12,675 nt of DNA, taken from the NCBI GenBank assembly GCA_902810755.1, contig CADDYT010000171.1, forward strand, positions 1 through 12,675, written 5' to 3'. Position 1 is the first letter of the stretch. Every line of letters begins with the position of its first letter. Of this stretch, positions 1 to 12,675 are shown piece after piece. The DNA comes from Chloroflexota bacterium (GTDB taxonomy: Bacteria > Chloroflexota > Ktedonobacteria > Ktedonobacterales > Ktedonobacteraceae). Made by a program: the position numbers and the translations under genes. Below the pieces are notes generated by a model that did no database searches, was not told where the DNA came from, and saw only the letters and a program-made list of their open reading frames with translations.

Positions 1-34
1 GGAAGTGGCCATCCCAGGCAGGCCACGCGCAAGA

Positions 35-100
35 GATGGCCCTACTATATACGAACGACCCGTAGGGATCAGGAAGCCATCGTAATATAGTAGGGCCATC
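35..100. repeat. ACTATATA-type hairpin repeat, copy 1
   Basis: The arms at 35-50 and 85-100 are perfect 16-bp reverse complements centred on GGCCCTACTATAT, with a 34-base spacer. The same arm sequence recurs at 3547-3567 and 3593-3613 with a different spacer. The arm is therefore the conserved part, which is what one expects of a dispersed palindromic repeat family rather than of a gene-specific structure. Confidence 0.85.
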
Positions 101-200
101 CCCATAGGCGTTAACTTAAGGCCGTGCGAGCGCCAGGCAGGCCACCCGCCAGGGGTGGCCTGCCTGGCGCTCGCACGGCCTTAAGTTAACGCCTATGGGG
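100..200. repeat. Perfect 48-bp-arm palindrome
   Basis: Bases 100-147 are the exact reverse complement of bases 153-200, leaving a 5-base loop (148-152, GCCAG). The arms contain GTTAACTTAAG and a very GC-rich stretch near the tip. In RNA this would form a very stable long hairpin; in supercoiled DNA it could extrude as a cruciform. No T-tract follows on either side, so it is not a classic intrinsic terminator. The perfect match implies recent origin or active maintenance. Confidence 0.95.
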
Positions 201-289
201 CCATCCCTTGCGCGTGGCTTGCTCGTCCCTGCTCACCCCACTTTTCCCAACAAGCCTGTAATGCTTTGCCAGAAAGTACGCTTTGTCTA

Positions 290-318
290 TTGTCAAGTAT
301 TGACGACTATGGTATACT
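290..318 (+). promoter_or_regulatory. Probable sigma-70-type promoter for tRNA-Pro
   Basis: TTGTCA (290-295) and TATACT (313-318) are separated by exactly 17 bases, and TGG just before the -10 gives an extended -10. Transcription would start near 325 and run into the tRNA at 452, leaving a leader of about 125 bases for processing. The leader contains a 7-bp inverted repeat, CAATTCG (399-405) with CGAATTG (431-437). Confidence 0.65.
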
Positions 319-451
319 ACTTTTGAGCAGGGAGGTGTGCAGGACCCGATCAAGCGAAGTTCAGGCTTCGGAGACAGCGGGAAACGGCACACGATACTCA
401 ATTCGGGTTTGGTTCGCCGGATGAGGTCTGCGAATTGCACGGATTGTTCAT

Positions 452-528
452 CGGGGTGTAGCGCAGTCGGCTAGCGCGCAGCGTTCGGGACGCTGAGGTC
501 GGAGGTTCAAGTCCTCTCACCCCGACCA
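452..528 (+). tRNA. tRNA-Pro (anticodon CGG)
   Basis: This 77-base gene folds into a complete cloverleaf. The acceptor stem pairs CGGGGTG with CACCCCG. The D stem pairs GCGC with GCGC, and the anticodon stem pairs CAGCG with CGCTG around loop TTCGGGA, so the anticodon is CGG, reading the proline codon CCG. The variable loop is AGGTC. The T arm pairs GGAGG with CCTCT (one G-U) around TTCAAGT. The discriminator is A525, and CCA is encoded at 526-528. The gene stands alone, with its own promoter about 135 bases upstream. No integrase or attachment-site duplication is seen beside it. Confidence 0.95.
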
Positions 529-914
529 GGATGGCACACTCATTTCCAGATGCAGGTGTCACACAGCTTTCTTACGAGACCAGATCAGAACAAGGAGTTA
601 TGGAATGCAGGCGTACCAGTTCTCTCTAAGAGCAACAGAATGCCATGGGAAGCTGGACGCTGCTTGCTCCGCCTCTTCCCCACTCACACGAGACACGGGA
701 ATACGCTGGCAGACGAGCAGCACATGCCTGTCTGTGCCAGGCTCTCCTGGACGTGCAAAACGCTTTTGCCCTTATCCGCCCAGTCGTCGCAGGCGGCGGT
801 AGAAGGAAGCAAGAGGGTCGGGGTCTCCCTTCCCCTTCTCTCACGTTGCGCTTCCTCTCTTCCTCGCTGTCTGCTCTGGTTATCGGCTCTGACAGAGAGG
901 AAGGAAAGCTATTC
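529..914 (+). other. Intergenic region, tRNA-Pro to HNH gene
   Basis: No convincing gene is seen here. The HNH reading frame stays open back to an ATG at 645, but that stretch is low-complexity, arginine- and serine-rich and unlike the family, so it is treated as non-coding. No clear terminator follows the tRNA. Close to the downstream gene there is a 10-bp inverted repeat (851-860 with 894-903) that overlaps its ribosome binding site. Confidence 0.6.
851..903 (+). promoter_or_regulatory. Hairpin that would cover the HNH gene's ribosome binding site
   Basis: CTTCCTCTCT (851-860) is the exact reverse complement of AGAGAGGAAG (894-903), with a 33-base loop. The right arm contains most of the AGGAAGG Shine-Dalgarno (898-904) of the gene starting at 915. 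If the RNA folds this way, translation initiation would be reduced. Only the base pairing is seen; the regulatory role is inferred, and a polypurine Shine-Dalgarno pairing with an upstream pyrimidine tract can arise by chance. Confidence 0.35.
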
Positions 915-1460
915 ATGCCTGTTCTTGTATTGAATTCCTCACTACAGCCTCTTTCGGTCATTCCCGAACGCCGCCTCATCGTGCTGCTTTCCAAACGGAA
1001 AGTCGTCTTTGTCGATGATCGCGCGCGCGAGTTGATCGAGGAGAGTATCAAAGCCCGGCGCCTTGAACTGGAACACCCCATCATTGTGCAGTTGCTCGCC
1101 AACGTGCGCACGCCGCGTGTAGCCTTGCAGCCAACGCGGGCCAATATCCTGCTGCGCGATGAGGAGACCTGCCAGTACTGCGGCAAGCGCAGCCGTGACC
1201 TGACGCTTGACCACATCGTCCCGCGCTCGCGCGGCGGCCAGAGTACGTGGGAGAACCTGGTGGCCTCCTGCAAAGCCTGCAACGGCAAAAAGGGCAACCG
1301 CCTGCTCAAAGAGGTGAATATGCGCCTCTTGCGCACGCCGCGCCCCCTCTCTCACGAGTACGCGGCCCTGTTCCTGCTGCGCTACCCGAGACTGCGCGAG
1401 GCTTACGAGGAGTTCTTGCTCAGCGCCCAGGGCGGATCCCCACAGGAGTTAAGCGCATAG
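915..1460 (+). CDS. HNH endonuclease family protein
   Basis: This 181-aa protein has a complete HNH zinc-finger nuclease core. C86-x2-C89 and C119-x2-C122 are the likely structural zinc ligands. D99-H100 is the catalytic pair of the beta-beta-alpha-metal fold, followed by PRSRGG, N114 and CNGKKGNR. The N-terminal 80 residues (MPVLVLNSS..PLSVI) match a common bacterial subfamily of stand-alone HNH proteins of about 170-190 aa, so the length is normal. The ATG at 915 is chosen because the family begins MPVLVLN and AGGAAGG lies 10 bases upstream; the upstream in-frame ATG at 645 would add 90 unlike residues. The protein would cut or nick DNA, but the physiological target of this subfamily is unknown. 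It is a single-gene unit ended by the terminator at 1467-1498. Confidence 0.9.
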   Translation: MPVLVLNSSLQPLSVIPERRLIVLLSKRKVVFVDDRARELIEESIKARRLELEHPIIVQLLANVRTPRVALQPTRANILLRDEETCQYCGKRSRDLTLDHIVPRSRGGQSTWENLVASCKACNGKKGNRLLKEVNMRLLRTPRPLSHEYAALFLLRYPRLREAYEEFLLSAQGGSPQELSA

Positions 1461-1466
1461 CTTTCC

Positions 1467-1498
1467 GGGGTGCAGGAACATATCCCTGCACCCTTTTT
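1467..1498 (+). terminator. Intrinsic terminator after the HNH gene
   Basis: GGGTGCAGG (1468-1476) pairs perfectly with CCTGCACCC (1485-1493) around an 8-base loop and is followed at once by five T residues (1494-1498). It begins seven bases after the HNH stop codon. Confidence 0.92.
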
Positions 1499-1499
1499 G

Positions 1500-1913
1500 T
1501 ATCGCATGAAACCATTCCGTCTGCTTCGTCCGTTATACAAGTAGGCAATAATGAGCTTGAGCTATGTCTTGCTGAACAAGGCGAAGCATCTGAGGCAATC
1601 GAAAGCTCAGCGTGGCGAGATCGGATACTTCGCTCAGCGTGCCGTGATCCTCTGGTTTGTTCAGGGAAGCGCACAAATAAACTCACCTGTATGGTATAAT
1701 AGAGTCAGGTAGAGGCAGGGAAGAGACGGGGCAACAGGCCTCGTACAGAGGAGTACACGCTCCCGCCAATCCCTTTTCGGTACATTGATAAAGAATATAT
1801 ACAGGAGAGTCAATTCTTAGCTCAGTTATAATAGATGAAGGATGACCTTTGTGATCCGTTCGTTCTGGTAGAAGCAGCGCTGTTTTTGTTGTGTTACCAG
1901 TGAAGGTGGTTAC
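1500..1913 (+). other. Intergenic region with degenerate repeats and GH57 leader
   Basis: No gene is convincing here. At 1605-1622 and 1632-1649 there is a direct repeat of about 18 bases, GCTCAGCGTG-x-CG-x-GATC, with two mismatches and a 27-base period. It is embedded in a patch (about 1570-1665) of TTCGCTCAGC/GCTGAACAAGGCGAAGC-like words in both orientations, which resembles worn intergenic repeat sequence. The last 210 bases are probably the 5' leader of the GH57 gene, running from the promoter at 1692-1700. A second TATAAT (1827-1832) has no matching -35. Confidence 0.55.
1692..1700 (+). promoter_or_regulatory. Extended -10 promoter element for GH57 gene
   Basis: TGGTATAAT is a perfect extended -10. 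No good -35 lies 16-18 bases upstream, which extended -10 promoters can tolerate. Transcription would start near 1707 and give a leader of about 205 bases before the GH57 start. The identical TGGTATAAT lies upstream of ffh on the other strand (6989-6981), which suggests it is a normal promoter form in this genome. Confidence 0.55.
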
Positions 1914-3431
1914 ATGCTTGAACAAATGAATACCCAGTCTTCCCGTTCTGGCGCAGGCCGCGCGTTTCTGTGCCTGCACGGCCACTTTTACCAGCCGCCG
2001 CGTGAAGACCCCTTTAGCGGCATTCTCCCCGTCGAACCTGGCGCTACCCCGTATGCGAACTTCAATGAAAAGATCACAGCCGAGTGCTACCGCCCCAACG
2101 CTGAAGCCGACAACTTCGCGGCCATCAGCTACGATCTGGGTCCGACACTCGCCGCCTGGCTGGAGCAGGCGCATCCCGATGTATACCGGCTCATCATCGA
2201 GGCCGATCAGCAGCACGTCGCGCGCTATGGTGTGGGCAACGCGCTGGCGCAGGCATACAACCACACTATCCTGCCGCTGGCGACGACCCGCGATAAGCGC
2301 ACGCAGATCGCCTGGGGCCTGAGCGATTTTCGCCATCGCTACGGACGCGAGGCGCGTGGTATGTGGCTGGCCGAGACGGCGGTCGACCTGGAAAGCCTCG
2401 ACCTGCTGGCGCAGTACGGCGTGACCTATACCGTTCTCGCCCCCTGGCAGGCCGCGACCCCCATCGACCCGACCGAACCCTACATCATCCCGTTGTTCGA
2501 TGGCCGCAGCATAACCGTCTTCTTCTACAACGCGCCCCTCTCCGGCGGCGTCTCCTTTGACTGGAACACCACCAGCAACGCCGATCTCTTTGCCGCCTCG
2601 TACCTGCCAGGTCATCTGCTCAGGGAGAAGCAGGAAGCCGGTCAGGATCAACTGATTCTTATCGCCACCGATGGCGAACTCTACGGCCATCACAAGCCCT
2701 GGCGCGACAAGTTCCTGTCACACCTGATCCAGCATGGCGCGCCCGATTACGGCTTCGAGGTCTGCACGCTGGAACGCTACCTGCTGGCCCATCCGGCCAC
2801 CCGCGAGGCGCAGTTGCGCGTGCCAAGCGCGTGGAGTTGCGGTCACGGCGTGGCGCGCTGGCAGAGCGGCTGCGAATGCACCGAGGGCGATAGCTCGTGG
2901 AAGGGCGCGCTGCGCAACGCGCTCGAACGGCTGGCACAGCGTGGCGACCTGCTGTTTGAACAGTACGCCGGGGAGACGCTGCTCGACCCCTGGGCCGCTC
3001 GCGACGACTACCTGCCGCTGCGCAACGGCTGGGAGACGGCGGAAAGCTTCTGGGCGCGACACGGCAAGGGGCAGCGCGCGCCGGAAGACGCCCTGCTGGC
3101 TCGCCGCACGCTCATGCTGCTCGAAGCCCAATACTACCTGCAATACAGCTTCACCAGCTGCGGTTTCTTCTTTGAAGACCTGGACCGCATCGAGCCGCGC
3201 AACGACATCGCCTTCGCGCGCCGCGCCATCAGCCTGATCTGGCAGGCCCTCGGCATCGACCTGCAGCGCAGCTTCCTCGAAGACCTGAGCAAGGCGCGTA
3301 GCTGGCGTCGTCCCCTCAACGGCGCCGATCTCTACCGCCAGCTTTCGATCAAGCCGCAGGGTCTCCTGCCGCCCCTGCCGCTCACCAGCGCCCAGAAGCA
3401 GGGGCCAGACGAGCAGGAAAGCGTGGCGTAA
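1914..3431 (+). CDS. Glycoside hydrolase family 57 protein (DUF3536-like)
   Basis: This 505-aa protein opens with the GH57 signature LHGHFYQPPREDP (residues 21-33). WLAET (151-155) fits the family's nucleophile region, making E154 the likely catalytic nucleophile. ATDGELYGHH (251-260) fits the acid/base region, with D253. The C-terminal half carries SCGHGVARW..CEC (C309, H311, C320, C322), a pattern I associate with the DUF3536 branch of GH57. GH57 enzymes are retaining alpha-glucan hydrolases or transferases (amylase, 4-alpha-glucanotransferase, branching enzyme). The exact substrate cannot be read here. No signal peptide is seen, so it is probably cytoplasmic and may act in glycogen or maltodextrin metabolism. 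AAGGTGG (1903-1909) supports the ATG at 1914; a second ATG at 1926 is possible. The gene is monocistronic and convergent with the L,D-transpeptidase gene. Confidence 0.88.
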   Translation: MLEQMNTQSSRSGAGRAFLCLHGHFYQPPREDPFSGILPVEPGATPYANFNEKITAECYRPNAEADNFAAISYDLGPTLAAWLEQAHPDVYRLIIEADQQHVARYGVGNALAQAYNHTILPLATTRDKRTQIAWGLSDFRHRYGREARGMWLAETAVDLESLDLLAQYGVTYTVLAPWQAATPIDPTEPYIIPLFDGRSITVFFYNAPLSGGVSFDWNTTSNADLFAASYLPGHLLREKQEAGQDQLILIATDGELYGHHKPWRDKFLSHLIQHGAPDYGFEVCTLERYLLAHPATREAQLRVPSAWSCGHGVARWQSGCECTEGDSSWKGALRNALERLAQRGDLLFEQYAGETLLDPWAARDDYLPLRNGWETAESFWARHGKGQRAPEDALLARRTLMLLEAQYYLQYSFTSCGFFFEDLDRIEPRNDIAFARRAISLIWQALGIDLQRSFLEDLSKARSWRRPLNGADLYRQLSIKPQGLLPPLPLTSAQKQGPDEQESVA

Positions 3432-3546
3432 AATACTACAGCGGGTAGCAGGCACGCCGCCAGCCCTTGCGGCTGGCACGCCGCGAGCAGGCACGCCGCC
3501 AGTCGACCCGCCGGTGGGTAGCGCCCCGCCCCAGGCCAGCCGCAAG

Positions 3547-3613
3547 GGCTGGCCCTACTATATACGACCGCTCCACCAGCGACACGATACGTTCGTATAT
3601 AGTAGGGCCAGCC
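3547..3613. repeat. ACTATATA-type hairpin repeat, copy 2
   Basis: The arms at 3547-3567 and 3593-3613 are perfect 21-bp reverse complements with a 25-base spacer. The core GGCCCTACTATATACG matches copy 1 at the left end of the window, whereas the spacers share little. Each arm is flanked by the small self-complementary word CCAGCCGCAAGGGCTGG, so a branched, cruciform-like fold is possible. Confidence 0.9.
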
Positions 3614-3618
3614 GCAAG

Positions 3619-3706
3619 GGCTGGCCTGCTTGTTGGCGGCTGGCCTGCTTGTTGGCGGCTGGCCTGCTCGCGGCTGGCCTGCTTGTTGGCGGCTGGCCTG
3701 CTACCC
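3619..3706. repeat. Tandem repeat, 19-bp unit, five copies
   Basis: The unit GGCTGGCCTGCTTGTTGGC occurs at 3619-3637, 3638-3656 and 3672-3690. A 15-bp shortened version (GGCTGGCCTGCTCGC) lies at 3657-3671, and a last unit, diverging after GGCTGGCCTGCT, lies at 3691-3706. The identity of the full units implies recent slippage or duplication. There are no unique spacers, so this is not a CRISPR array. Confidence 0.92.
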
Positions 3707-3731
3707 ACCGGCTGAGCGTTTTTGTCTCTCT

Positions 3732-5438
3732 TTAATAAATCACAATCTGCGTATTCCAGTCGGTATGGGAGTAGACCCAGGCCGCCTGCTGCTCCTGGAC
3801 GTTGACGCAGCCGTGACTGCCGTTGCCGGCAAACGCTTCGTCGCCGCCCACGTCGTAGTGGGGAAACTGCGTGCCGGGGCCGAAGTTGACGCGCCACCAG
3901 GCATCGTGGACGAAGTAGCCGCCCCAGTGATAGAGAATGGCGTAGTTGATCGGCGTGTCAGGATACCAGTAGGGCGAACCCTTCGGCTCGCTGGCCTTGA
4001 AGACGGTCGGCGATTGCCGATTCTGTACCGTCCAGTCGCCGGGTAGCGAGGGCAGCTCGACGCGACCGGTCGTGACCAGGAAGGATTTGACCAGTTTGCC
4101 GTTCTGGTAGAGGCGCATGGCCTGCTCCACGAACGAGATCACCAGCACCTGCGAGTGTTGCAGGCCGTAGTGCTGGAGCAGTTCCAGATCGGTCTGATGC
4201 ACCTGATTATAGGGCGTCTTATCAGCGTAATCCTGTTCGAGCATTTGCAGGCTGAAGAGTTCATTGTTCTCTTCGTCGACCACAGCCTGGAAATCGGCGG
4301 GGGTGTAGGCCCAGCTCAGGTCGCGCTGAATCCAGTAGCCGATGCCATCGGTGGTGTAGCCGGCGGCCAGATCGTAGTTATGGCCGTCGAACTTATCATG
4401 GTAGGCGTGGGCTGCGCCCCAGGCGCGGGCCTGGCGGTCAATCGCGCCGATCAGGTAGCTGGCCTCGCCCTGCACAAGTTCGTCATGCATCGAGGCGATG
4501 TCGGAGTCGATTTGCTGCGAGAAGATCAGGTAGTCGTGCAGGCTCTTCGCCTTTTCCATCATGGCTGTGTCCGCCTTCAGCCGGGCCTGATAGGTACTGG
4601 CATCCATACCATATTTTTTCAGCAGGTTGACCTGCGTCTGAAATTCGTTCAGCTTGGCCGCGCTGACGTAGGGCAGGGCCTGATAGGAGTTGACAACCGC
4701 TTCCTGATATTGCGCGTTGATCAGCGTACCCAGATACTGGAGATCAGGCGAGGCCGTTACCGTGTTCAGCGCCTGCAAATCGCTTTTATACTGCGCCTGC
4801 ATGGCGGCGACATCCAGTTGCGCTTTCTGCATCTGGCTGACGGTACTCTTAAAGGTCGCCAGTTGATCGTAGGTGGCGCTGAGCAGGTCGAGCGCGGCAG
4901 TCTGCTTACTTGCGTCCTGGCTGACGGCGGCATAGTCTTTCGGCGTCCGGGCCAGAGCCATGAGCGTCTGATCTTTGTTGAATTGAGCTTGAAATGCTGC
5001 TATATTGCCAACACCTTTTGCGCGCTGCCGTGAGAGCGCCAGCCCGAAATTTTCCATATCGTGCTGGGCCTGCAACTGGAACTGCGTCGTACTGCTCGTG
5101 ATAATATCCTGTACCTGGCCGCTTAATTGTTGATAGTGTTTTGTCAGATTTTGATAATAGGCATTATCTGGCTGGTCATTGAATGGCGAGAAGGGAGCGC
5201 CGCTGCTGCTGAGCTGCTGCTCCTGTTTCACAACGGGTTGAAGCAGGGATGATGGCACGCCGATGCTGCGAGCGTGGGCGAGCAGGCTATCAAGTTGCGT
5301 TTTACTCTGGCTCGCCTGCTGCTGCAAGTGAGCGTCGCCCCCACAACCGCTGGTCAAAATAACGAGACCAAGCATAAGTACCACCAGAAATCCCTGGGCT
5401 ACCCTCTGAGACGGGTAGCCAGGGCGAATGCTGGGCAT
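3732..5438 (-). CDS. Lipoprotein L,D-transpeptidase (YkuD domain)
   Basis: This 568-aa protein begins with a short basic segment, a hydrophobic stretch (residues 17-29) and TSGC, a usable lipobox with C32 as the lipidated residue. It should therefore be anchored on the outer face of the membrane. Residues 35-425 are Gln/Ala/Leu-rich and helical or coiled-coil-like, with a loosely repeated 65-70-residue pattern (AFQAQFNKD near 148, AMQAQYKSD near 212, TYQARLKAD near 282). Residues 428-568 form a YkuD domain. FVHDAWW supplies H511, and SHGCVNV supplies H542 and catalytic C544. YkuD enzymes make 3-3 cross-links in peptidoglycan or attach proteins to it. The long N-terminal region is unusual and may be a stalk or a partner-binding part. 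Translation is likely coupled to ffh, only six bases upstream. Confidence 0.88.
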   Translation of the reverse strand: MPSIRPGYPSQRVAQGFLVVLMLGLVILTSGCGGDAHLQQQASQSKTQLDSLLAHARSIGVPSSLLQPVVKQEQQLSSSGAPFSPFNDQPDNAYYQNLTKHYQQLSGQVQDIITSSTTQFQLQAQHDMENFGLALSRQRAKGVGNIAAFQAQFNKDQTLMALARTPKDYAAVSQDASKQTAALDLLSATYDQLATFKSTVSQMQKAQLDVAAMQAQYKSDLQALNTVTASPDLQYLGTLINAQYQEAVVNSYQALPYVSAAKLNEFQTQVNLLKKYGMDASTYQARLKADTAMMEKAKSLHDYLIFSQQIDSDIASMHDELVQGEASYLIGAIDRQARAWGAAHAYHDKFDGHNYDLAAGYTTDGIGYWIQRDLSWAYTPADFQAVVDEENNELFSLQMLEQDYADKTPYNQVHQTDLELLQHYGLQHSQVLVISFVEQAMRLYQNGKLVKSFLVTTGRVELPSLPGDWTVQNRQSPTVFKASEPKGSPYWYPDTPINYAILYHWGGYFVHDAWWRVNFGPGTQFPHYDVGGDEAFAGNGSHGCVNVQEQQAAWVYSHTDWNTQIVIY

Positions 5439-5444
5439 AGAGGT

Positions 5445-6923
5445 TTACCTCCTTCCGCTGCGGGCCTTCTGTTTCTTTCTTTCTTTGCGCAGGGCCTTGC
5501 CGGTCTTTTTGCCGCCCCCTTTCGGGCCGTTGCCGCTTGCTTTCGGCAAAGCTGGCATACCCGGCATTCCCCCGCCACCGTACTGACGCGCCAGTTGCGC
5601 CCACGGCCCCTTGCCGCTGCTGATCTGCCGCATCATGGCGCGCATCTCGTTGAACTGTACCAACAATTGATTCACGTCATGGACATCCATTCCGCTTCCG
5701 GCGGCGATACGCTTGCGACGGCTCCCGTTGATGATATCGGGATTGCGCCGCTCCTCGCGCGTCATCGACAGAACGATCGCCTCGATGTGCTTCAGATGAT
5801 CGCCTTCCAGCGCCTCCTCCATCTCCGGCATGTCGGCCAGTTTATTGAAGCCTGGCATCATCTCCATGACCGAGCGCAGCGGCCCCATGCGTTTCAACTG
5901 GCGCATAGCGGTCAGGAAATCCTCCAGGTCGAACTTGCCCTGCTGCATTTTGGCCTGGGCCTTGAGCGCCTCCTCCTCGTCGATGGCCTCCTGCGCGCGT
6001 TCGATCAGGGAGAGAACATCTCCCATTCCCAGTATACGCGAGGCCAGGCGATCGGGGTAGAACGGCTCCAGCGCCTCGATTTTCTCGCCCACGCCCATGA
6101 ACTTGATCGGCACGCCTGTGACCGAGCGAATGGAGAGGGCGGCGCCGCCGCGTGCATCGCCATCCATCTTGGTCAGAATCATGCCGGTCAGCCCCACAGC
6201 TTTGTTAAAGTCATCGGCGACGCGCACCGCCTCCTGGCCGGTCATAGCGTCGGCCACCAGCAGCACCTCGCGCGGCTGCACGCGGGCGCGAATATTCATG
6301 ACCTCCTGCATCATGCGCTCATCGATATTCAAACGGCCCGCCGTGTCGAGAATGACGACCGAAGCCGCCTGCTCGCGGGCGTAATTAATCGAGTTCACGC
6401 AGATGTCGACCGGGTTGGCCCCCATCGGCTCGGCATAAACCGGAATCGAAAGTTGCTTGCCGAGCGTCTGCAACTGGCGCACGGCGGCGGGCCGGTACAT
6501 ATCGGCGGCTACCATAATCGGGCGCTGCCCCTGCTTGCGCAGGTAGTTCGCCAGCTTGGCCGCCGTCGTCGTCTTACCGGAGCCTTGCAGGCCCACCAGC
6601 ATAATCACATTCGGCGGCGTGCCGGAGAGATTCAGCCGGTTCTGCTCTCCATCGCCGCCCAGCATCTCGATCAATTCCTCGTTCACAATGGAGAGAACCT
6701 GTTGCGCGGGTGAAAAGCTGCCCAGCACATCCGCGCCAATCGCCTTCTCCCTGACGCGCTCAACAAACTGCCGTACTATCTTCAAACTGACATCCGCTTC
6801 GAGCAGGGCCATACGCACTTCGCGCATCGCCTCATTCACATCGGCCTCAGTCAGCTTCCCTTTCCCACTCAGATTCGTAAAAACGCCTTCCAGGCGTTTG
6901 GATAAACTTTCAAACATTGCCAT
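5445..6923 (-). CDS. ffh: Signal recognition particle GTPase Ffh
   Basis: With the ATG at 6923 the protein has 492 aa. It is the SRP54 homologue that binds signal sequences on nascent chains and the SRP RNA, then docks with FtsY at the membrane. The helical N domain (about 1-95) leads into the G domain with G1 GLQGSGKT (111-118), G3 DTAGR (193-197) and G4 TKMDGDARGG (251-260). The C-terminal M domain (from about 315) has methionine-rich helices (MRQLKRMG, SVMEMMPGF) and the RNA-binding GSRRKRIAAGSG (400-411). It ends in a Gly/Lys/Arg-rich tail. The start at 6923 is chosen because AGAGGG lies 11 bases before it; an in-frame GTG at 6959 would add 12 residues not typical of the family. The gene is first in an operon with the L,D-transpeptidase gene. 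Confidence 0.97.
   Translation of the reverse strand: MAMFESLSKRLEGVFTNLSGKGKLTEADVNEAMREVRMALLEADVSLKIVRQFVERVREKAIGADVLGSFSPAQQVLSIVNEELIEMLGGDGEQNRLNLSGTPPNVIMLVGLQGSGKTTTAAKLANYLRKQGQRPIMVAADMYRPAAVRQLQTLGKQLSIPVYAEPMGANPVDICVNSINYAREQAASVVILDTAGRLNIDERMMQEVMNIRARVQPREVLLVADAMTGQEAVRVADDFNKAVGLTGMILTKMDGDARGGAALSIRSVTGVPIKFMGVGEKIEALEPFYPDRLASRILGMGDVLSLIERAQEAIDEEEALKAQAKMQQGKFDLEDFLTAMRQLKRMGPLRSVMEMMPGFNKLADMPEMEEALEGDHLKHIEAIVLSMTREERRNPDIINGSRRKRIAAGSGMDVHDVNQLLVQFNEMRAMMRQISSGKGPWAQLARQYGGGGMPGMPALPKASGNGPKGGGKKTGKALRKERKKQKARSGRR
5447..5453 (-). promoter_or_regulatory. Shine-Dalgarno of the transpeptidase gene, overlapping the ffh stop
   Basis: On the minus strand AGGAGGT ends eight bases before the ATG at 5438. 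Its last T is the first base of the ffh TAA stop codon (5447-5445). A ribosome finishing ffh would thus stop directly on the downstream initiation site, which points to translational coupling and a true operon. Confidence 0.85.
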
Positions 6924-6980
6924 AATTGCGATTTCCCTCTCTGCCGGTTGGACAAACACATGACGCCAGCATACCCCACA

Positions 6981-6989
6981 ATTATACCA
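6981..6989 (-). promoter_or_regulatory. Extended -10 promoter for the ffh operon
   Basis: On the minus strand positions 6989 to 6981 read TGGTATAAT, a perfect extended -10, about 60 bases before the ffh start codon. The -35 position reads AATAAA, a poor match. Transcription would begin near 6975, which would leave the GTG at 6959 only a very short leader and favours the ATG at 6923. Confidence 0.6.
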
Positions 6990-7350
6990 TGTTTCCTGCC
7001 TCTTTTATTCCCTTTTGAACAAGATTTTATGAGACCCGGTCAGAAAAACAGCAACCATGCCCTCACCCCTCTACACTGCATAATGCGCCCCGCCACGTCA
7101 GAGTTGCATGAGAAAATCCCCTCTATAAAATATATCGAAAAAGCTGCACAAAGGTCACACGCAGTGAGACGAAAAGCACAGGGCAGTACACCTTCGTCAC
7201 ATGCCAGCACCGCCATTCCAGCCATTTCCAGTCCCCCTTTCTCTCGAAACCTCAAGTATTATATAATAAAAGAAACCCGCAACTAACTATCAAGCGATTG
7301 CCAATCACGCTTAACGAAATTTGACGAACAGAAAAAGAGGGGAGCAACCT
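6990..7350. other. Intergenic region, ffh to small DUF4177-like gene
   Basis: I see no gene in this stretch. Short frames on both strands lack recognisable protein character or ribosome binding sites. The SRP RNA conserved core (GGAAG...AGCAG) was looked for because of ffh and is not here. TATAAT at 7262-7267 lies in an AT-rich patch about 85 bases before the small gene and may be its -10, but the -35 (TTCTCT, 7239-7244) is weak. Confidence 0.45.
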
Positions 7351-7584
7351 ATGCCACGCTGGGAGTATTTGACAGTGCAAGTCGAATCGCACGGCTTCAA
7401 TCACGAACACCTTGCTGTTCGCTACGTCAACGGAACAGAGCAAAAAGACTGGAAGAAAACCCCCATGCACGCCTTCATCACTCGACTTGGCATAGACGGC
7501 TGGGAAATGACAGGAGTCCTCAGCCCACACAGTGGTGGCGCTGGCTTCCACAACTATCTGTTCTTCAAACGCCCACGCCCTTAA
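7351..7584 (+). CDS. Small DUF4177-like protein
   Basis: This 77-aa protein starts MPRWEYLTVQV and contains ITRLGIDGWEMTGVLS, followed by a GGAGFHNYLFFKRP end. The N-terminal WEY-beta strand plus a late LG-x-DGWE motif is the pattern of the small DUF4177 family, whose function is unknown. The ATG at 7351 is preferred because AGAGGGGAG (7336-7344) lies six bases before it; an in-frame TTG at 7321 would add 10 residues without a site of its own. There is no signal peptide and no membrane segment. The gene stands alone between ffh (divergent) and the accessory ATPase-helicase pair, and it is separated from that pair by about 350 bases. Nothing links it functionally to either side. Confidence 0.7.
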   Translation: MPRWEYLTVQVESHGFNHEHLAVRYVNGTEQKDWKKTPMHAFITRLGIDGWEMTGVLSPHSGGAGFHNYLFFKRPRP

Positions 7585-7936
7585 GGGGGAATTGGGGAGA
7601 TATATCGATCAGGGATGGGATATTTTGCCTCTTCCATATGCCAGCCAGAGCAATCAGGTGTACAATAGTAGCAGAGTATACATATTGGAAGAGGAAGGTG
7701 CCATATGTATCAAAAATGACAGCTTCTTCAAAAATATGTTGCGGTTATTTCTTTTTTGAGTTAAACTAGAGATCAGCAATGGCATGTATTACCAGGTAAT
7801 AGTCACATAGAGGGAAAATTTCCGACTTAACGACTTCAGGTGAGAATGAGAGTGAGAGGAGTCTTCTAAATCGTTAGATGGAATTCTATCTAGGCTTGCA
7901 TCTGAGACGTTAAAGATAAAGATAGAAGGGTTTTAG
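7585..7936 (+). other. AT-richer intergenic region before the ATPase-helicase pair
   Basis: No gene is convincing. CCTCTTCCA (7628-7636) is the exact reverse complement of TGGAAGAGG (7686-7694). Between the arms lies TACAAT (7661-7666), a possible -10 whose -35 is poor. The next 240 bases are purine-rich and AT-richer than the region to the left and hold no clear terminator. Either the promoter of the downstream pair lies here with a long leader, or a weaker one lies near TTGCAT (7896-7901). Confidence 0.5.
7628..7694 (+). promoter_or_regulatory. Inverted repeat around a possible -10, candidate operator
   Basis: Two perfect 9-bp arms (7628-7636 and 7686-7694) flank a 49-base segment containing TACAAT. 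The arrangement could bind a dimeric regulator or form a leader hairpin. Only the symmetry is seen, and no regulator gene is adjacent. Confidence 0.3.
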
Positions 7937-10255
7937 ATGAATACTCATGACTCATCATATGCAGTTTTTCGGCCTCGGGCCCGTCTTCTCTCTATTCTAG
8001 GCGAACAGCTAATCAGTGATCAGACAGTGGGACTGATTGAATTAGTGAAAAATGCCTACGATGCTGATGCTACTCGGGTTGAAATAGACTTGCTAAACCT
8101 TACTGTGGCTGAGACCACTCAGATTATTATACGTGACAATGGGTCTGGCATGACCAGAGAAGATATCGAACAGAAATGGCTAAGTCCTGCGGTTAATCAT
8201 AAAGAGCGTCAGAAGAAAGCCAGGCAGCGCACGCCACTCGGTCGGCTCCCGATTGGAGAGAAGGGTGTCGGTCGTTTCGCAGCTCAGAAACTCGGTCATA
8301 AATTTCAGATGATCAGCCGGTCAGTGGGGTCATCTGAAGTGGTTGTGCAGATCGACTGGGACGACTTTGAACGAGAGGACACCTATCTGGATGATGTCAC
8401 GCTCACTCTCTATGAACGCGAGCCTGTCCTCTTCACTGAAGGTGCTACCGGTACCATTCTCCTCATTGAGGAGGCCCGAACACTCTGGACAGAACCAATG
8501 GTCGCAAGAGTACAACGAGCCCTGCGCCGCCTTCAAAGCCCCCATCAAGGACAGAATAAAATTGATTTCCAGATCAGCTTTTCCTGTCCTGACTTCCCTG
8601 CGTATCAGAATATCAGTAATAGTGACATTCTGGATCGCGCCCATTATGTTTTTGCAGGGCTGGTTTCAGAGGAAGGTGTACTTGATTACGAATATTCCTG
8701 TCATCATCCGGTCGTTGCAGAACGGCTGGCCGTTGTAGACAACTATGACCTCATGCCAGCAGCAAAGGACGAGATGTCTTCTCCGGGTCACAATAGTGCC
8801 GGACCATTTTACCTGAACTTCTATGTGTGGGACCGCACGCAGGAGTTTCTCAATCAGAGCGGAGTCTCGCGCGCAGACCTGGATGCAATGGCCGGGGTGT
8901 CCATATTTCGGGATGGACTGCGTGTCCTACCCTATGGGGAGCCGGGGAATGACTGGCTGGACCTGGACAGAGAGCGTATCAATGCTCCATCAGAACGCAT
9001 CGGTAATCAGCAAATCATCGGTTTCGTCGAAGTGTTCCAGGAGAACACGCCAGATTTACGGGATAAAACCAACCGCGAAGGGCTGATCGACAATGCCGCC
9101 TTCCGTGACCTGCGAGCCCTTGTGAGAGCGGCCATCAACGTCTTTATCTCACAATGGCTTCAGGATCGACAGAAAATGGGGAAGCGGTCCAAGACCACAG
9201 AGCGCGAGCCTGCTGGAGATTCGCTACGTAAGGCTCGTGTGCTAGCCGAGAAAGTGCAGGAAACAGCACGAGATGATATCGTTGTCAGGATAGAAAATCC
9301 GGCATTACTGTTACCCTTCCAACCGTCCGGTCTCCAGTTGGCATCTGCACCTCTGAAAACTGAACAGACTGAACAATCGCCACCGACATCACAAGCCAGC
9401 ATTTCGGCAGCCGTACAGGAGGTAGCTCGATCTGAGGATCCTCCCCCTGCCCTGCAATTGACTCAGCGACAGGCCATGTATCAGCTCCTGCATTTCCTTG
9501 AGGATGCCGATACGTACCAGGCAAAAAGTGAAACTGATCGAGAACAACAGGCGCAGATACTCATGCATCTGGCGGCAACGGGATTGGCAGCCGAGCGAGT
9601 CGTCCACGAATTTGGCCGTCAGGTAGGTGCTGCGTTGACAGCCTTGCGTGTGCTGAGCGGTCTGGATAAAAAAGTCGGGAGTGAGGTAGCAGATGCTGTT
9701 CGCACCCTCGATGCCTGTCTGGGGACACTACGCAATGAATTTCGTGTACTTGCTCCCTATGAAGCTGGCTGGCACCTGCAACGCATCCTTCCGATGAGCA
9801 TGCGTGAGTCTGCGCGCCTGGCACTCAAGTTGAATGAATATCTTATTAACTCGAACACTATCACCGTCGATATCAAAGGAAACGATTTTGATGTCATGGC
9901 ACGGCCTGCATCCCTTGTGCAGGTCCTCGATAATCTGGTGCATAATGCATGTGTCTGGCTGGCAGGCTGGCGCGGATCACGCTGTATCACCATCATGCTG
10001 GATGATGAGCAGCGGACGGTCTCCATAGCAGATACCGGACCCGGCATTCCATCCTATATGAGAGATGACATTTTCAGGCCGTTTGTGACTCTCCGCAATG
10101 GCGGTCGCGGCCTGGGACTCTACATCACCCGAGAACTGTTACATGCCATGCAAGCAAACATCAATCTGGATGATGAAGAAATAGGCCAGGGAGCCCGGTT
10201 CATCTTACACTTTCCTCCGCTGAACAACGAGCGGGCGGCTAAACAGGTACAGTAG
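7937..10255 (+). CDS. Double-GHKL ATPase: Hsp90/MORC-like N-terminus, histidine-kinase-like C-terminus
   Basis: This 772-aa protein carries two separate GHKL ATP-binding modules. The first (about 8-130) has N-box ELVKNAYDADA (35-45, N39), DNGSGM (67-72) and lid motif GEKGVGRFA (107-115), as in Hsp90/MutL/MORC-type enzymes. The following region to about 410 includes IFRDGLRVLPYGEPGNDW and DKTNREGLIDN, which I recognise from accessory ATP-binding proteins. A low-complexity linker (410-510) leads to a HisKA-like helix pair with VVHEFG (H557). The second module is a histidine-kinase ATPase: NLVHNA (666-671), DTGPGI (699-704), FRPF (713-716) and GRGLGL (723-728). No membrane segment is seen, so it is probably cytoplasmic. 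AGAAGGG lies six bases before the ATG. Only 15 bases separate it from the helicase gene, so they form an operon. The role is probably sensing or switching in defence, by inference. Confidence 0.8.
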   Translation: MNTHDSSYAVFRPRARLLSILGEQLISDQTVGLIELVKNAYDADATRVEIDLLNLTVAETTQIIIRDNGSGMTREDIEQKWLSPAVNHKERQKKARQRTPLGRLPIGEKGVGRFAAQKLGHKFQMISRSVGSSEVVVQIDWDDFEREDTYLDDVTLTLYEREPVLFTEGATGTILLIEEARTLWTEPMVARVQRALRRLQSPHQGQNKIDFQISFSCPDFPAYQNISNSDILDRAHYVFAGLVSEEGVLDYEYSCHHPVVAERLAVVDNYDLMPAAKDEMSSPGHNSAGPFYLNFYVWDRTQEFLNQSGVSRADLDAMAGVSIFRDGLRVLPYGEPGNDWLDLDRERINAPSERIGNQQIIGFVEVFQENTPDLRDKTNREGLIDNAAFRDLRALVRAAINVFISQWLQDRQKMGKRSKTTEREPAGDSLRKARVLAEKVQETARDDIVVRIENPALLLPFQPSGLQLASAPLKTEQTEQSPPTSQASISAAVQEVARSEDPPPALQLTQRQAMYQLLHFLEDADTYQAKSETDREQQAQILMHLAATGLAAERVVHEFGRQVGAALTALRVLSGLDKKVGSEVADAVRTLDACLGTLRNEFRVLAPYEAGWHLQRILPMSMRESARLALKLNEYLINSNTITVDIKGNDFDVMARPASLVQVLDNLVHNACVWLAGWRGSRCITIMLDDEQRTVSIADTGPGIPSYMRDDIFRPFVTLRNGGRGLGLYITRELLHAMQANINLDDEEIGQGARFILHFPPLNNERAAKQVQ

Positions 10256-10270
10256 AGAGGGGAAAAGTTC

Positions 10271-12675
10271 ATGACAGTGCCATCAGTAGTCGACCTGCGT
10301 CGGCAGTTGATAGACGAACTGCGGCGCGATCTCATCGGACCCGGCAGCGAGAACGAAATACTCAGTGACGCCCCTACCATTGAATATCTTACAGGAATTC
10401 TCTATCCCTCCGGAATAGAACTACCTTCGCAAGAAGACGAGAAACTCGAAATAGACGGTGTAGAAGACGACGATGAGGCTGACGATGACCTGATTATCCT
10501 CTCGCAAACCATGAATCCGGCATCGCTCGGATTATCTTTTGCTGTGGAGGATGACATCAATCAGCTTGAGGTTGAGGTGGCCTATGGTCTATATACGATG
10601 CGTGGTGAGAAAAGAACAGATGGATGGCAACGCCAGCAGTTCAAGAGAATAATCCCGGTATCATTATCAATGTCAGGTGGAAGAGCAGAGCTGGAAAATG
10701 AGGGAAGCCTGGAATGGATTGTGCGAGCACGACCCGGGAAACGCAGTGTTTCCATCTTCCTGGTGAACCGTAATCCCTTGCCAGATCAGGACGGTGAATC
10801 CTCAAACATTGATGAGCTATGTTTATTCCAGCCATCTTTGGAGGTGCGAGGAGCAGGCGCAATACGTCCCTTTGTCCATCGTGTCCCCCAGGGAGACCTT
10901 CCGTTTGATGCGGACCTGGAATCGTATCGGCTTCTCTACCGCGATTGCTATGAGTTTGCCATGGGCCATGGATGTGCCGTGGACTGGAACGATGTTCAGG
11001 GCGATCGTGCCGGAATCCTCAGAACGACCACTATACCAGCTTATGAATTGCCTGCTACCATCCCCAACAGTATGGCGGAACTGGAAATGCTAACGCTTGG
11101 TCGGGCTTCCAGCCCTGATGAAGTTGTTTCACTATTGAGACCGGTGCTTGAGGCCTATGAAAAGTGGATTGGTGAACGGCGCGCCGAGATCCCCACTCTG
11201 ATATCGCAGGAATTGCGTGACACTGCTAGCGTTCATATCAATCTCTGCAATCAGGCGCTGGAAAGAATGCGAACCGGCTTGGAACTGCTGAAGCAAGATC
11301 GACAGGTATTTGAAGCATTTCGTTTTGCCAACCAGGCCATGTTGCTCCAGCGTTCTCATAGTGAATGGGTACAGCGATACCGTCGCACGGGAAAGCGCCA
11401 GACGGCCACTCCAGACTGGATCGGCACCTGGCGGCCATTCCAGATCGCCTTTATTCTGCTCAATCTTCCAGGAATAGCACGTCCGGAAAGTGACGACCGC
11501 ACTCTGGTTGACCTGCTCTGGTTTCCGACGGGCGGTGGCAAGACCGAAGCCTATCTGGGTCTGACGGCTTTTACCCTGGCACTGCGAAGGCTGCGGGGGA
11601 AGATCGACGGCATGAATGGCGACGGCGGTGTAACCGTGATTATGCGCTATACGCTGCGGCTATTAACCACCCAGCAATTTCAACGTGCGACTACTCTCAT
11701 CTGCGCATGTGAATACCTGCGACGCCGGGATTCTCAAAAGTGGGGAAAGCGCCCGTTTCAAATTGGCCTCTGGGTTGGAGCAGGGGCAACCCCCAATAAT
11801 ATCAAAGGTGAAAAGGGCGCAGAAGAAGCTTTAACCCAACTCCGTAAAGGTGTGGAGGTAAAAGAAGGAAATCCCGTCCAGTTACCTTTCTGTCCATGGT
11901 GTGGAGAGAAATTGACTGCCTGGAATTACCACATTGATCAAAATAGAGAGCAGCTGGTCCTTGTCTGTCCAAGAAAAGAATGTGCTTTTTATGGCACAGA
12001 CCAGAAACTGGATCAGGGCATTCCTGCTCTGGTCGTCGATGAAGATATTTATCACCAGTGTCCCTCGTTGCTGCTGGCAACAGTGGATAAATTCGCGCGC
12101 CTTCCCTGGCACCCTCCCACCATGGCGCTCTTTGGCAGGGTAAGTCGTTGCTGTCCAAAACATGGGTATCTGGTCCATACAGACAATCACGCTGTGACTC
12201 ACAGAGGCACAACCAGAACGGCCTCCATCACAGTACAGAACTGCGATCCATTCTTACCGCCGGAGTTGATCATTCAGGATGAACTCCACCTGATATCAGG
12301 GCCGCTTGGCACATTATCAGGACTGTACGAAACGGCCATTGATCGGCTCTGCTCGTATACAACGGCCTCCGGAGAGACTGTACGACCTAAAGTCATCGCC
12401 TCTACAGCGACCATCCGGCGAGCCGATGATCAGGTGCGCGGCATATTTGCACGGGGGGTGCGCCTTTTCCCGCCTTCCGGGCTACATGCAGGCGACTCCT
12501 TCTTCGCTCAGGCCCGACCGATCTCTCAGCGACCCGGCAGATATTATCTCGGCGTTTGCGCTCCGGGGCGAAGTGTGAAGAGTGCCCTGGTGCGTGTTTA
12601 TGCTATTTTGCTCCAAGTAGCTGGTGAGCAGCTCGCTCAGTACGGCTCTGGCGTTGCAGATGCATACACCACGTT
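10271..12675 (+). CDS. drmA: DrmA-like DISARM-type helicase (3' end outside window)
   Basis: An open frame of 801 codons runs off the right edge. The N-terminus (LRRQLIDELRRDLIGP, then SLGLSFAV) has the DrmA style and includes an acidic run near residues 56-78. Helicase motifs follow: PTGGGKTEAYLG with Walker-A K424, MRYTLRLLTTQQFQRA, a CPWC..CPRKEC cysteine cluster (C541, C544, C566, C571) likely binding zinc, VDKFARLPW, the DELH box (670-673) and STATIRR (711-717). The second RecA-like domain has just begun when the window ends. DrmA works with DrmB (DUF1998) in DISARM, where the complex binds and moves along phage DNA; that function is assigned from the family. GAGGGGA lies seven bases before the ATG, 15 bases after the ATPase stop. 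DrmA-like helicases also occur in non-canonical defence operons, so the exact system type is open. Confidence 0.82.
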   Translation, partial: MTVPSVVDLRRQLIDELRRDLIGPGSENEILSDAPTIEYLTGILYPSGIELPSQEDEKLEIDGVEDDDEADDDLIILSQTMNPASLGLSFAVEDDINQLEVEVAYGLYTMRGEKRTDGWQRQQFKRIIPVSLSMSGGRAELENEGSLEWIVRARPGKRSVSIFLVNRNPLPDQDGESSNIDELCLFQPSLEVRGAGAIRPFVHRVPQGDLPFDADLESYRLLYRDCYEFAMGHGCAVDWNDVQGDRAGILRTTTIPAYELPATIPNSMAELEMLTLGRASSPDEVVSLLRPVLEAYEKWIGERRAEIPTLISQELRDTASVHINLCNQALERMRTGLELLKQDRQVFEAFRFANQAMLLQRSHSEWVQRYRRTGKRQTATPDWIGTWRPFQIAFILLNLPGIARPESDDRTLVDLLWFPTGGGKTEAYLGLTAFTLALRRLRGKIDGMNGDGGVTVIMRYTLRLLTTQQFQRATTLICACEYLRRRDSQKWGKRPFQIGLWVGAGATPNNIKGEKGAEEALTQLRKGVEVKEGNPVQLPFCPWCGEKLTAWNYHIDQNREQLVLVCPRKECAFYGTDQKLDQGIPALVVDEDIYHQCPSLLLATVDKFARLPWHPPTMALFGRVSRCCPKHGYLVHTDNHAVTHRGTTRTASITVQNCDPFLPPELIIQDELHLISGPLGTLSGLYETAIDRLCSYTTASGETVRPKVIASTATIRRADDQVRGIFARGVRLFPPSGLHAGDSFFAQARPISQRPGRYYLGVCAPGRSVKSALVRVYAILLQVAGEQLAQYGSGVADAYTT

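Follow-up and report, generated by a model that had tools for sequence, protein, structure and literature searches.

A candidate DISARM variant led by a MORC-like histidine kinase in Chloroflexota DNA

Here we describe a 12,675-nt stretch of DNA from a Chloroflexota bacterium (NCBI GenBank assembly GCA_902810755.1, contig CADDYT010000171.1, positions 1–12,675; hereafter the window), whose right-hand end carries a gene for an HEF_HK/paraMORC-type kinase followed at once by drmA, the helicase gene of DISARM (defence island system associated with restriction–modification). Judging from related loci, we consider it fairly likely that the window holds the first part of a DISARM-type operon in which this kinase stands first, replaces the usual class-specific partners and gates DrmAB. 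The arrangement looks like a new DISARM variant, with DrmAB as the neighbour of the kinase where a response regulator is usual. Gene content, gene order, tight coupling, conserved catalytic residues and a clade-specific neighbour (DrmA versus a receiver-like protein) were observed in the window or its relatives. A preliminary description of the same DNA had proposed a non-canonical DISARM-type system, a view that the relatives' gene content and conserved pairing support.

Results

The pair comprises two open reading frames (ORFs) on the forward strand: gene 1 (7937–10255, 772 aa) and gene 2, which starts at 10271 and is still open at the window end (801 aa). The 15-base gap between them (10256–10270, + strand) contains a G-rich, ribosome-binding-like stretch, and purine/G-rich stretches lie upstream of both starts (AGAAGGG; GAGAGGGG), in keeping with the spacing and matched ribosome binding sites of the preliminary description. 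Gene 1 encodes a MORC/Hsp90-type ATPase in its N-terminal part and a histidine-kinase core with an intact His box in its C-terminal part, in agreement with the earlier double-GHKL reading. The N-terminal GHKL ATPase domain (HATPase_c_3, residues 33–160, 8033–8416, +; Pfam E = 7.9e-21, together with residue conservation) belongs to a MORC/Hsp90-like GHKL plus S5 unit followed by a linker; a segment between this domain and the next one spans 8492–9172 (+), with boundaries inferred from a predicted model. Alignment, conservation and the predicted model then place a DHp-like two-helix hairpin at residues 510–605 (9464–9751, +), containing the His box VVHEFGRQ and the His557 codon (9605–9607, +), ahead of the C-terminal histidine-kinase ATPase domain (HATPase_c, residues 657–761, 9905–10219, +; Pfam E = 8.6e-26 and predicted model). 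Both ATPase domains are present in 26 of 26 aligned relatives of the window kinase, 17 of which match the HEF_HK domain (PF19191), and fold matches of gene 1 include MORC2–DNA structures. Earlier treated as an ATPase outside the canonical DISARM set, gene 1 is not an unknown ATPase; it resembles described HEF_HK/paraMORC proteins (PMC8011034, PMC2292703; these and all papers below are cited in excerpt). PADLOC (2023 copy) returned for the kinase, up to E 0.1, only weak and partial matches to REase_II and TmtA. A suggested kinship with helicase–methylase–ATPase systems found no support, with no such model among the PADLOC matches in a search that had no control that these models would respond.

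By its profile matches and motifs, gene 2 (10271–12675, +) is a DrmA helicase truncated where the window stops, as the DrmA-like reading had it. Its N-terminal 801 residues match PADLOC DrmA at E = 3.1e-203, the sole PADLOC match up to E 0.1, and retain a Walker A motif (GGGKTE, residues 421–426, 11531–11548, +), a CxxC (541–544, 11891–11902, +), a DELH box (670–673, 12278–12289, +) and a STAT motif (711–714, 12401–12412, +). With the NCBIfam model DISARM_DrmAS this fragment, whose C-terminus lies beyond the window, scores 844.6 bits, short of the cut-off of 950; the orthologous DrmA of the related locus L097 exceeds this cut-off (1210.5 bits), and the DrmAs of loci L005 and L007 pass an NCBIfam DrmA cut-off too.

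Kinase relatives were collected in a scan of one genome per species, which yielded 181 by alignment query, the best 80 being kept; four further loci from viral (phage) contigs, all unlinked, brought the total to 84. An earlier scan with the single window protein as query had returned no relatives, and the alignment query was used thereafter. In the flanks of these loci (at most 10 kb on each side and in many cases shorter), the window DrmA matched by tblastn exactly the seven closest kinase loci, L001–L007 (44–61% identity to the window kinase), and none of the other 77. These seven, from records named Chloroflexales, Schekmanbacteria, Streptomyces, Thermoanaerobaculia, Planctomycetota (two) and Chthonomonas, are termed linked, as is an eighth, L097; the 77 others are termed unlinked. 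drmA is the next gene after the kinase in 7/7 linked loci versus 0/77 elsewhere, a tally that the preliminary description had proposed, and in 8/8 when L097 is counted. The latter, whose source genome shares its phylum with that of L001, is the closest relative with readable DNA downstream. It begins at a contig edge with the C-terminal part of a kinase and continues with drmA, 62% identical to that of the window, and then drmB; genes for a cytosine methyltransferase, an HhH-GPD protein and a ResIII helicase run convergently on the opposite strand. Across the eight linked loci and the window, the distance from kinase stop to drmA start ranges from −11 to +25 nt (some start codons by inspection). 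The 119 best database relatives of gene 1 share 45–91% identity with it, in most cases along more than 90% of the protein; because relatives span this range and the pairing recurs in several phyla, the gene pair is not a chance juxtaposition. On plasmids, 622 records matched the kinase, all below 60% identity and at most 38.2% among the 60 matches listed, and the linked clade was not seen.

Other DISARM genes accompany the pair. drmB is present in 6/7 linked loci and in L097, and in 0/77 unlinked flanks; in the seventh linked locus, L001, the contig ends inside DrmA and drmB cannot be read. drmC, encoding a PLD protein, occurs in 5/7 linked and 0/77 unlinked loci and was not seen in L097, while ResIII occurs in 6/7 versus 0/77. 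The drmB, methyltransferase and PLD genes that had been proposed as companions were thus found in relatives, with DrmB of the MZB/DUF1998 type and often a cytosine methyltransferase and DrmC. Cytosine methyltransferase genes flank 5/7 linked and 67/77 unlinked kinases, HhH-GPD genes 4/7 and 7/77, and Vsr genes 1/7 and 48/77. Against DrmMII models, the methyltransferase of L097 scores 348 bits, and those of L007 and L006, both cut by contig ends, 280 and 138 bits. References for drmD and MmeI matched no ORF of L001–L007 or L097, and the same references do match other Chloroflexota loci. As separate observations, DrmA and DrmB of L002 lie in one 1876-aa ORF (5330–10960, +; DrmB part 9239–10957), apparently a natural fusion, and beside the linked operon of L005 an Mrr-type restriction enzyme with an AspBHI-like N-terminal domain (18060–19289, +) adjoins a Vsr-like gene.

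Unlinked kinases usually have a different neighbour. In 64 of 74 unlinked loci (leaving out L040, which has no kinase ORF, and L019 and L033, whose next gene is unreadable), the next gene belongs to one of two receiver-like families (36 and 28 members), which match each other by profile with a probability of 95.9% and E = 5.9e-9 (23 and 21 rows). Among 20 next genes scanned, five matched Response_reg, four Response_reg_2 and two cytosine methyltransferase, so the receiver assignment rests on family models for some members and on likeness for others. Response_reg_2 (PF19192) had no match in the linked genomes G001–G007; as a whole-genome test this model is weak (3/30 genomes match), and the comparison of neighbours was used instead. 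The linked clade keeps the same methylation and repair surroundings, has no receiver neighbour and gains DrmAB(C) and ResIII beside the kinase. The receiver pairing may be ancestral to the DrmA pairing.

Linked kinases form one clade (support 98 and 99 in two trees). At 37 compared positions in the ATP site, the His box and nearby, 33 are identical in 8/8 linked kinases, the exceptions being Asn68 (7/8), Phe559 (7/8), Gln562 (5/8) and Phe713 (7/8). When 117 of the 119 best database relatives (at least 650 aa, the window's own protein excluded) were added to the loci in a tree, all 117, taken as protein sequences, fell inside the linked clade. His557, Glu558, Asn666 and Asn670 are identical in 125/125 aligned clade members. 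Because a clade without a receiver neighbour keeps the phospho-acceptor histidine in every member examined, the alignment suggests that phosphotransfer, or at least the mechanics of the His box, still matters there. The same invariance of His557 is our ground for proposing that the kinase probably performs ATP-gated sensing and probably signals to DrmAB.

Several findings weigh against this reading. The window ends inside drmA, with DrmB and the remaining operon genes lying outside it, and at E 0.1 the HEF_HK model does not match the window kinase itself. Conservation of His557 is not special to the linked clade, as 72/75 unlinked rows share this residue, and no phospho-acceptor partner of the kinase was identified. 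The linked kinase is moreover rare in the sampled genomes, and most DISARM loci were seen without such a kinase. In the phylum of G001, 6/400 genomes match at E 1e-60: G001 and G124 (both linked), G146 with a broken kinase and three relatives of 37–39% identity. The family of G003 has the kinase in 2/297 genomes, one of them linked, and at E 1e-90 it occurs in 1/151 and 1/392 genomes of the phyla of G007 and G005, in each case G007 or G005 itself. The DrmAL model matches 14/297 genomes in the phylum of G004, of which only G004, with its kinase, passes the cut-off; it matches 42/296 in the class of G003, with two passing, G003 with a kinase and G462 with a remnant. Across the 93 loci L100–L192, many of which extend just 1.5 kb past the match, kinase matches were confined to the loci of G003, G004, G005 and G007, apart from the remnant in G462 and a partial one in L102. 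The chloroflexote genome G146 carries broken kinase pieces (L095, 11023–12246) whose identity to the window kinase reaches 91%, and DrmA is matched neither near these pieces nor anywhere in the genome; in its class, 16/47 genomes match DrmA (E 1e-40) and 0/16 of these match the kinase (E 1e-60).

The tree of DrmA belongs with these findings. Kinase-linked DrmAs fall into two clades: the window, L001 and L097, of DrmAS type, and L002–L007, assigned to the DrmAL type from tests of L005 and L007, inside which a kinase-less copy from G130 is nested. A strict single clade of linked DrmAs was rejected (p = 1e-4); one that allows G130 inside was not (p = 0.32). The tree left out the short copies L088, L090, L098 and L120, and the origin test also left out the long-branch copies L118, L121 and L123. 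The pattern may reflect one origin followed by loss, or else an exchange of DrmAB beside a kinase that stayed in place. In G130, methyltransferase, HhH, DrmA, DrmB and DrmC genes run in one direction (L126, 162–8725, −), with neither kinase nor ResIII in the 20 of 36 kb read; at E 1e-60 the rest of the genome has no kinase match either. A DrmA–DrmB–ResIII array with 89% DNA identity to L003 occurs in G462, which belongs to the same family as the genome of L003; the DrmA, DrmB and ResIII frames of G462 are open, and its kinase is cut to the last 36 residues (L193, 11238–11345, −) with other ORFs beyond. As DrmAB occurs in these two natural relatives with the kinase missing or truncated, there may be circumstances in which the kinase is not needed. 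A rule that kinase and ResIII always vary together was considered and dropped: G130 has neither, but G462 keeps ResIII with its kinase cut.

Around the pair, the window is otherwise ordinary, with flanking genes for an HNH protein, a GH57/DUF3536 protein, an L,D-transpeptidase and SRP54. The nearest listed relatives of the SRP54 protein reach 99% identity; those that bear the names Ktedonobacteraceae or Ktedonobacter share 83–86% with it, and the host most likely belongs to that group. The G+C content at third codon positions (GC3) is 0.51–0.52 in the kinase and drmA genes versus 0.73–0.81 in four flanking genes, as expected of acquired DNA. A small DUF4177/Sp36-like gene (7321–7584, 87 aa, below both models' cut-offs) lies 352 bases upstream of the kinase, its GC3 of 0.59 likewise under that of the housekeeping genes. 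Elsewhere in the window, a cluster of direct and inverted repeats (3443–3721; one 39-nt pair and exact 19-nt pairs) separates the GH57 and L,D-transpeptidase genes, and a tRNA-Pro gene with anticodon CGG (452–528) lies near the left end.

Discussion

From these arrangements we infer what the kinase senses, its partner, its signal and its effect. MORC-type ATPases undergo ATP-dependent dimerisation and entrap DNA. Driven by ATP, the MORC-like half would clamp onto foreign DNA, or onto a DNA state that arises during infection, and clamp closure would switch the C-terminal kinase through autophosphorylation on His557; contact or phosphotransfer would carry this change to the DrmAB translocase. 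Unmodified DNA would then be acted on by DrmAB and the ResIII helicase, joined by the DrmC nuclease in loci that have it. Self DNA would be marked by the cytosine methyltransferase, and T:G mismatches arising from deamination of 5-methylcytosine would be repaired by the HhH-GPD (or Vsr) enzyme. The DrmAB translocase is restrained by a trigger loop and activated by 5′-overhang DNA (PMC9142583); on the simplest reading, the kinase would form a second gate in addition to this loop, its clamp reporting the state of DNA to DrmA as a conformational or phosphoryl signal. A narrower version, which we regard as tentative and rather doubtful, is a phosphorelay-controlled DISARM, in which the MORC-like clamp–histidine kinase senses invading DNA and, without a response-regulator neighbour, signals straight into DrmAB. 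Were this true, DrmA (or DrmB, or the ResIII helicase) would be a new kind of histidine-kinase output.

Three alternatives bear on this interpretation. The kinase could be a regulator of the operon instead of a part of the machine, and its complete kinase core, the DNA-damage-responsive controllers described beside immune operons including DISARM (PMC13373217), and the loss of the kinase in G462 with open DrmA, DrmB and ResIII frames, which fits a dispensable regulator, all speak for such a role. We nonetheless judge it unlikely: the kinase is the first gene of the operon, its coding sequence overlapping drmA or nearly so, unlike a separate controller, and the seven linked genomes lack a Response_reg_2 match, albeit by that weak model and with ordinary response regulators elsewhere outside the search. 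An improbable alternative makes the kinase functionally part of a cytosine methylation and repair module (methyltransferase with HhH-GPD or Vsr) that merely lies beside DISARM. The methyltransferase and Vsr genes flanking most unlinked kinases favour it, as does the association of such kinases with restriction–modification (R-M) in PMC8011034; set against these are the coupling of the kinase to drmA, the methyltransferase on the opposite strand in L002, L006, L007 and L097, and G130, which retains methyltransferase and HhH without the kinase.

Finally, the two genes might be passengers or a decaying pair with no joint function in the window genome. The rarity of the linked clade and the broken kinase of G146, left without a DrmA match, would suit this account, but both window frames are open, key catalytic residues are kept and the pairing persists across Chloroflexales, Schekmanbacteria, Streptomyces, Thermoanaerobaculia, Planctomycetota and Chthonomonas records, and we give it very little credence. 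Gating of DrmAB by a kinase within the same operon is the interpretation that we favour.

Such a variant would matter in several ways. To our knowledge, neither the kinase nor the ResIII gene is in known DISARM gene lists. Because the kinase is absent from these lists and gives only weak, partial PADLOC matches, defence annotation is expected to report kinase-led loci without their first gene. How DISARM discriminates self from foreign DNA and how it is triggered are still being worked out (PMC9142583), and a kinase-led variant offers a simple genetic way to ask whether a partner gates DrmAB. HEF_HK kinases, described on the basis of gene neighbourhoods and expression data (PMC8011034), would in turn gain a concrete candidate output.

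Comparison with known systems

The closest comparison is with DISARM itself. Class 1 (drmD, MmeI-like drmMI, drmA, drmB, drmC) shares the DrmA and DrmB core with the relatives' loci, and the window DrmA is of the DrmAS type, like that of the class-1 locus L101. The linked loci differ in being kinase-first, with a cytosine methyltransferase, a ResIII helicase and HhH-GPD and no match to drmD or MmeI. Class 2 comprises drmMII, drmE, drmA, drmB and drmC; the linked relatives resemble it in a cytosine methyltransferase that scores with DrmMII models, in DrmB and often in DrmC, and the kinase matches no DrmE model, although the drmE-like control L121 matched none either.

In the class-1 DISARM locus L102, on the Deinococcus plasmid p96k, an ATP-binding protein (19642–21636, −) matches the kinase over about 100–145 residues and sits beside a cytosine methyltransferase and a Vsr gene. 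Among other Chloroflexota DISARM loci (13 regions taken and 11 annotated, with L134 and L138 outside the annotation; 10 loci annotated for this comparison), genes of 705–791 aa before drmA were considered as distant kinases and rejected, 4/4 scanned being UvrD-type helicases. These lie shortly before drmA in L131 (4871–7021), L133 (4492–6666), L132 (9616–11991) and L128 (2254–4371), and three of the four show a weak ParE-like N-terminal match. As far as these gene orders indicate, drmA seems to have a swappable partner slot.

HEF_HK/paraMORC proteins have been described beside cytosine R-M systems with a receiver-domain partner (PMC8011034, PMC2292703), HEF_HK–Response_reg_2 linkage being put at 91.6% (PMC8011034). 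The HEF_HK pairs of that study have the same HATPase_c_3–DHp-like–HATPase_c layout as the window kinase and, like the linked loci, favour genes for cytosine methyltransferase, ResIII and repair enzymes as neighbours; they differ in their downstream gene, receiver-like there and DrmA in every linked locus here. MORC/paraMORC GHKL proteins of R-M operons are likewise GHKL plus S5 ATPases beside SF2 helicases, cytosine methyltransferases and nucleases (PMC2292703), and so is the Shedu protein VcSduA, a paraMORC3 joined to a nuclease, whose antiphage activity is reported to require both ATPase and nuclease (PMC12137116). Neither account describes a histidine-kinase half, and the helicases of the paraMORC operons are Rad25-like, SWI2/SNF2 or of a third SF2 type, not DrmA/DrmB (PMC2292703). 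ARMADA and other YprA-family systems have a YprA-family helicase core in common with the linked loci; ARMADA has BrxHII-like and PglX-like genes (PMC12458937), for which the linked loci had no specific search.

DISARM, MORC/paraMORC R-M operons, HEF_HK kinases and a defensive paraMORC (VcSduA, PMC12137116) have each been described singly. In the open-licence literature we found no link of HEF_HK, paraMORC or GHKL proteins to DISARM; the main text of PMC8011034 does not contain the terms DISARM, DUF1998 or PLD, and that of PMC12458937 does not mention GHKL, HATPase or a histidine kinase. Because the combination was found in none of these sources, the kinase joined to DISARM would be a new form of that system.
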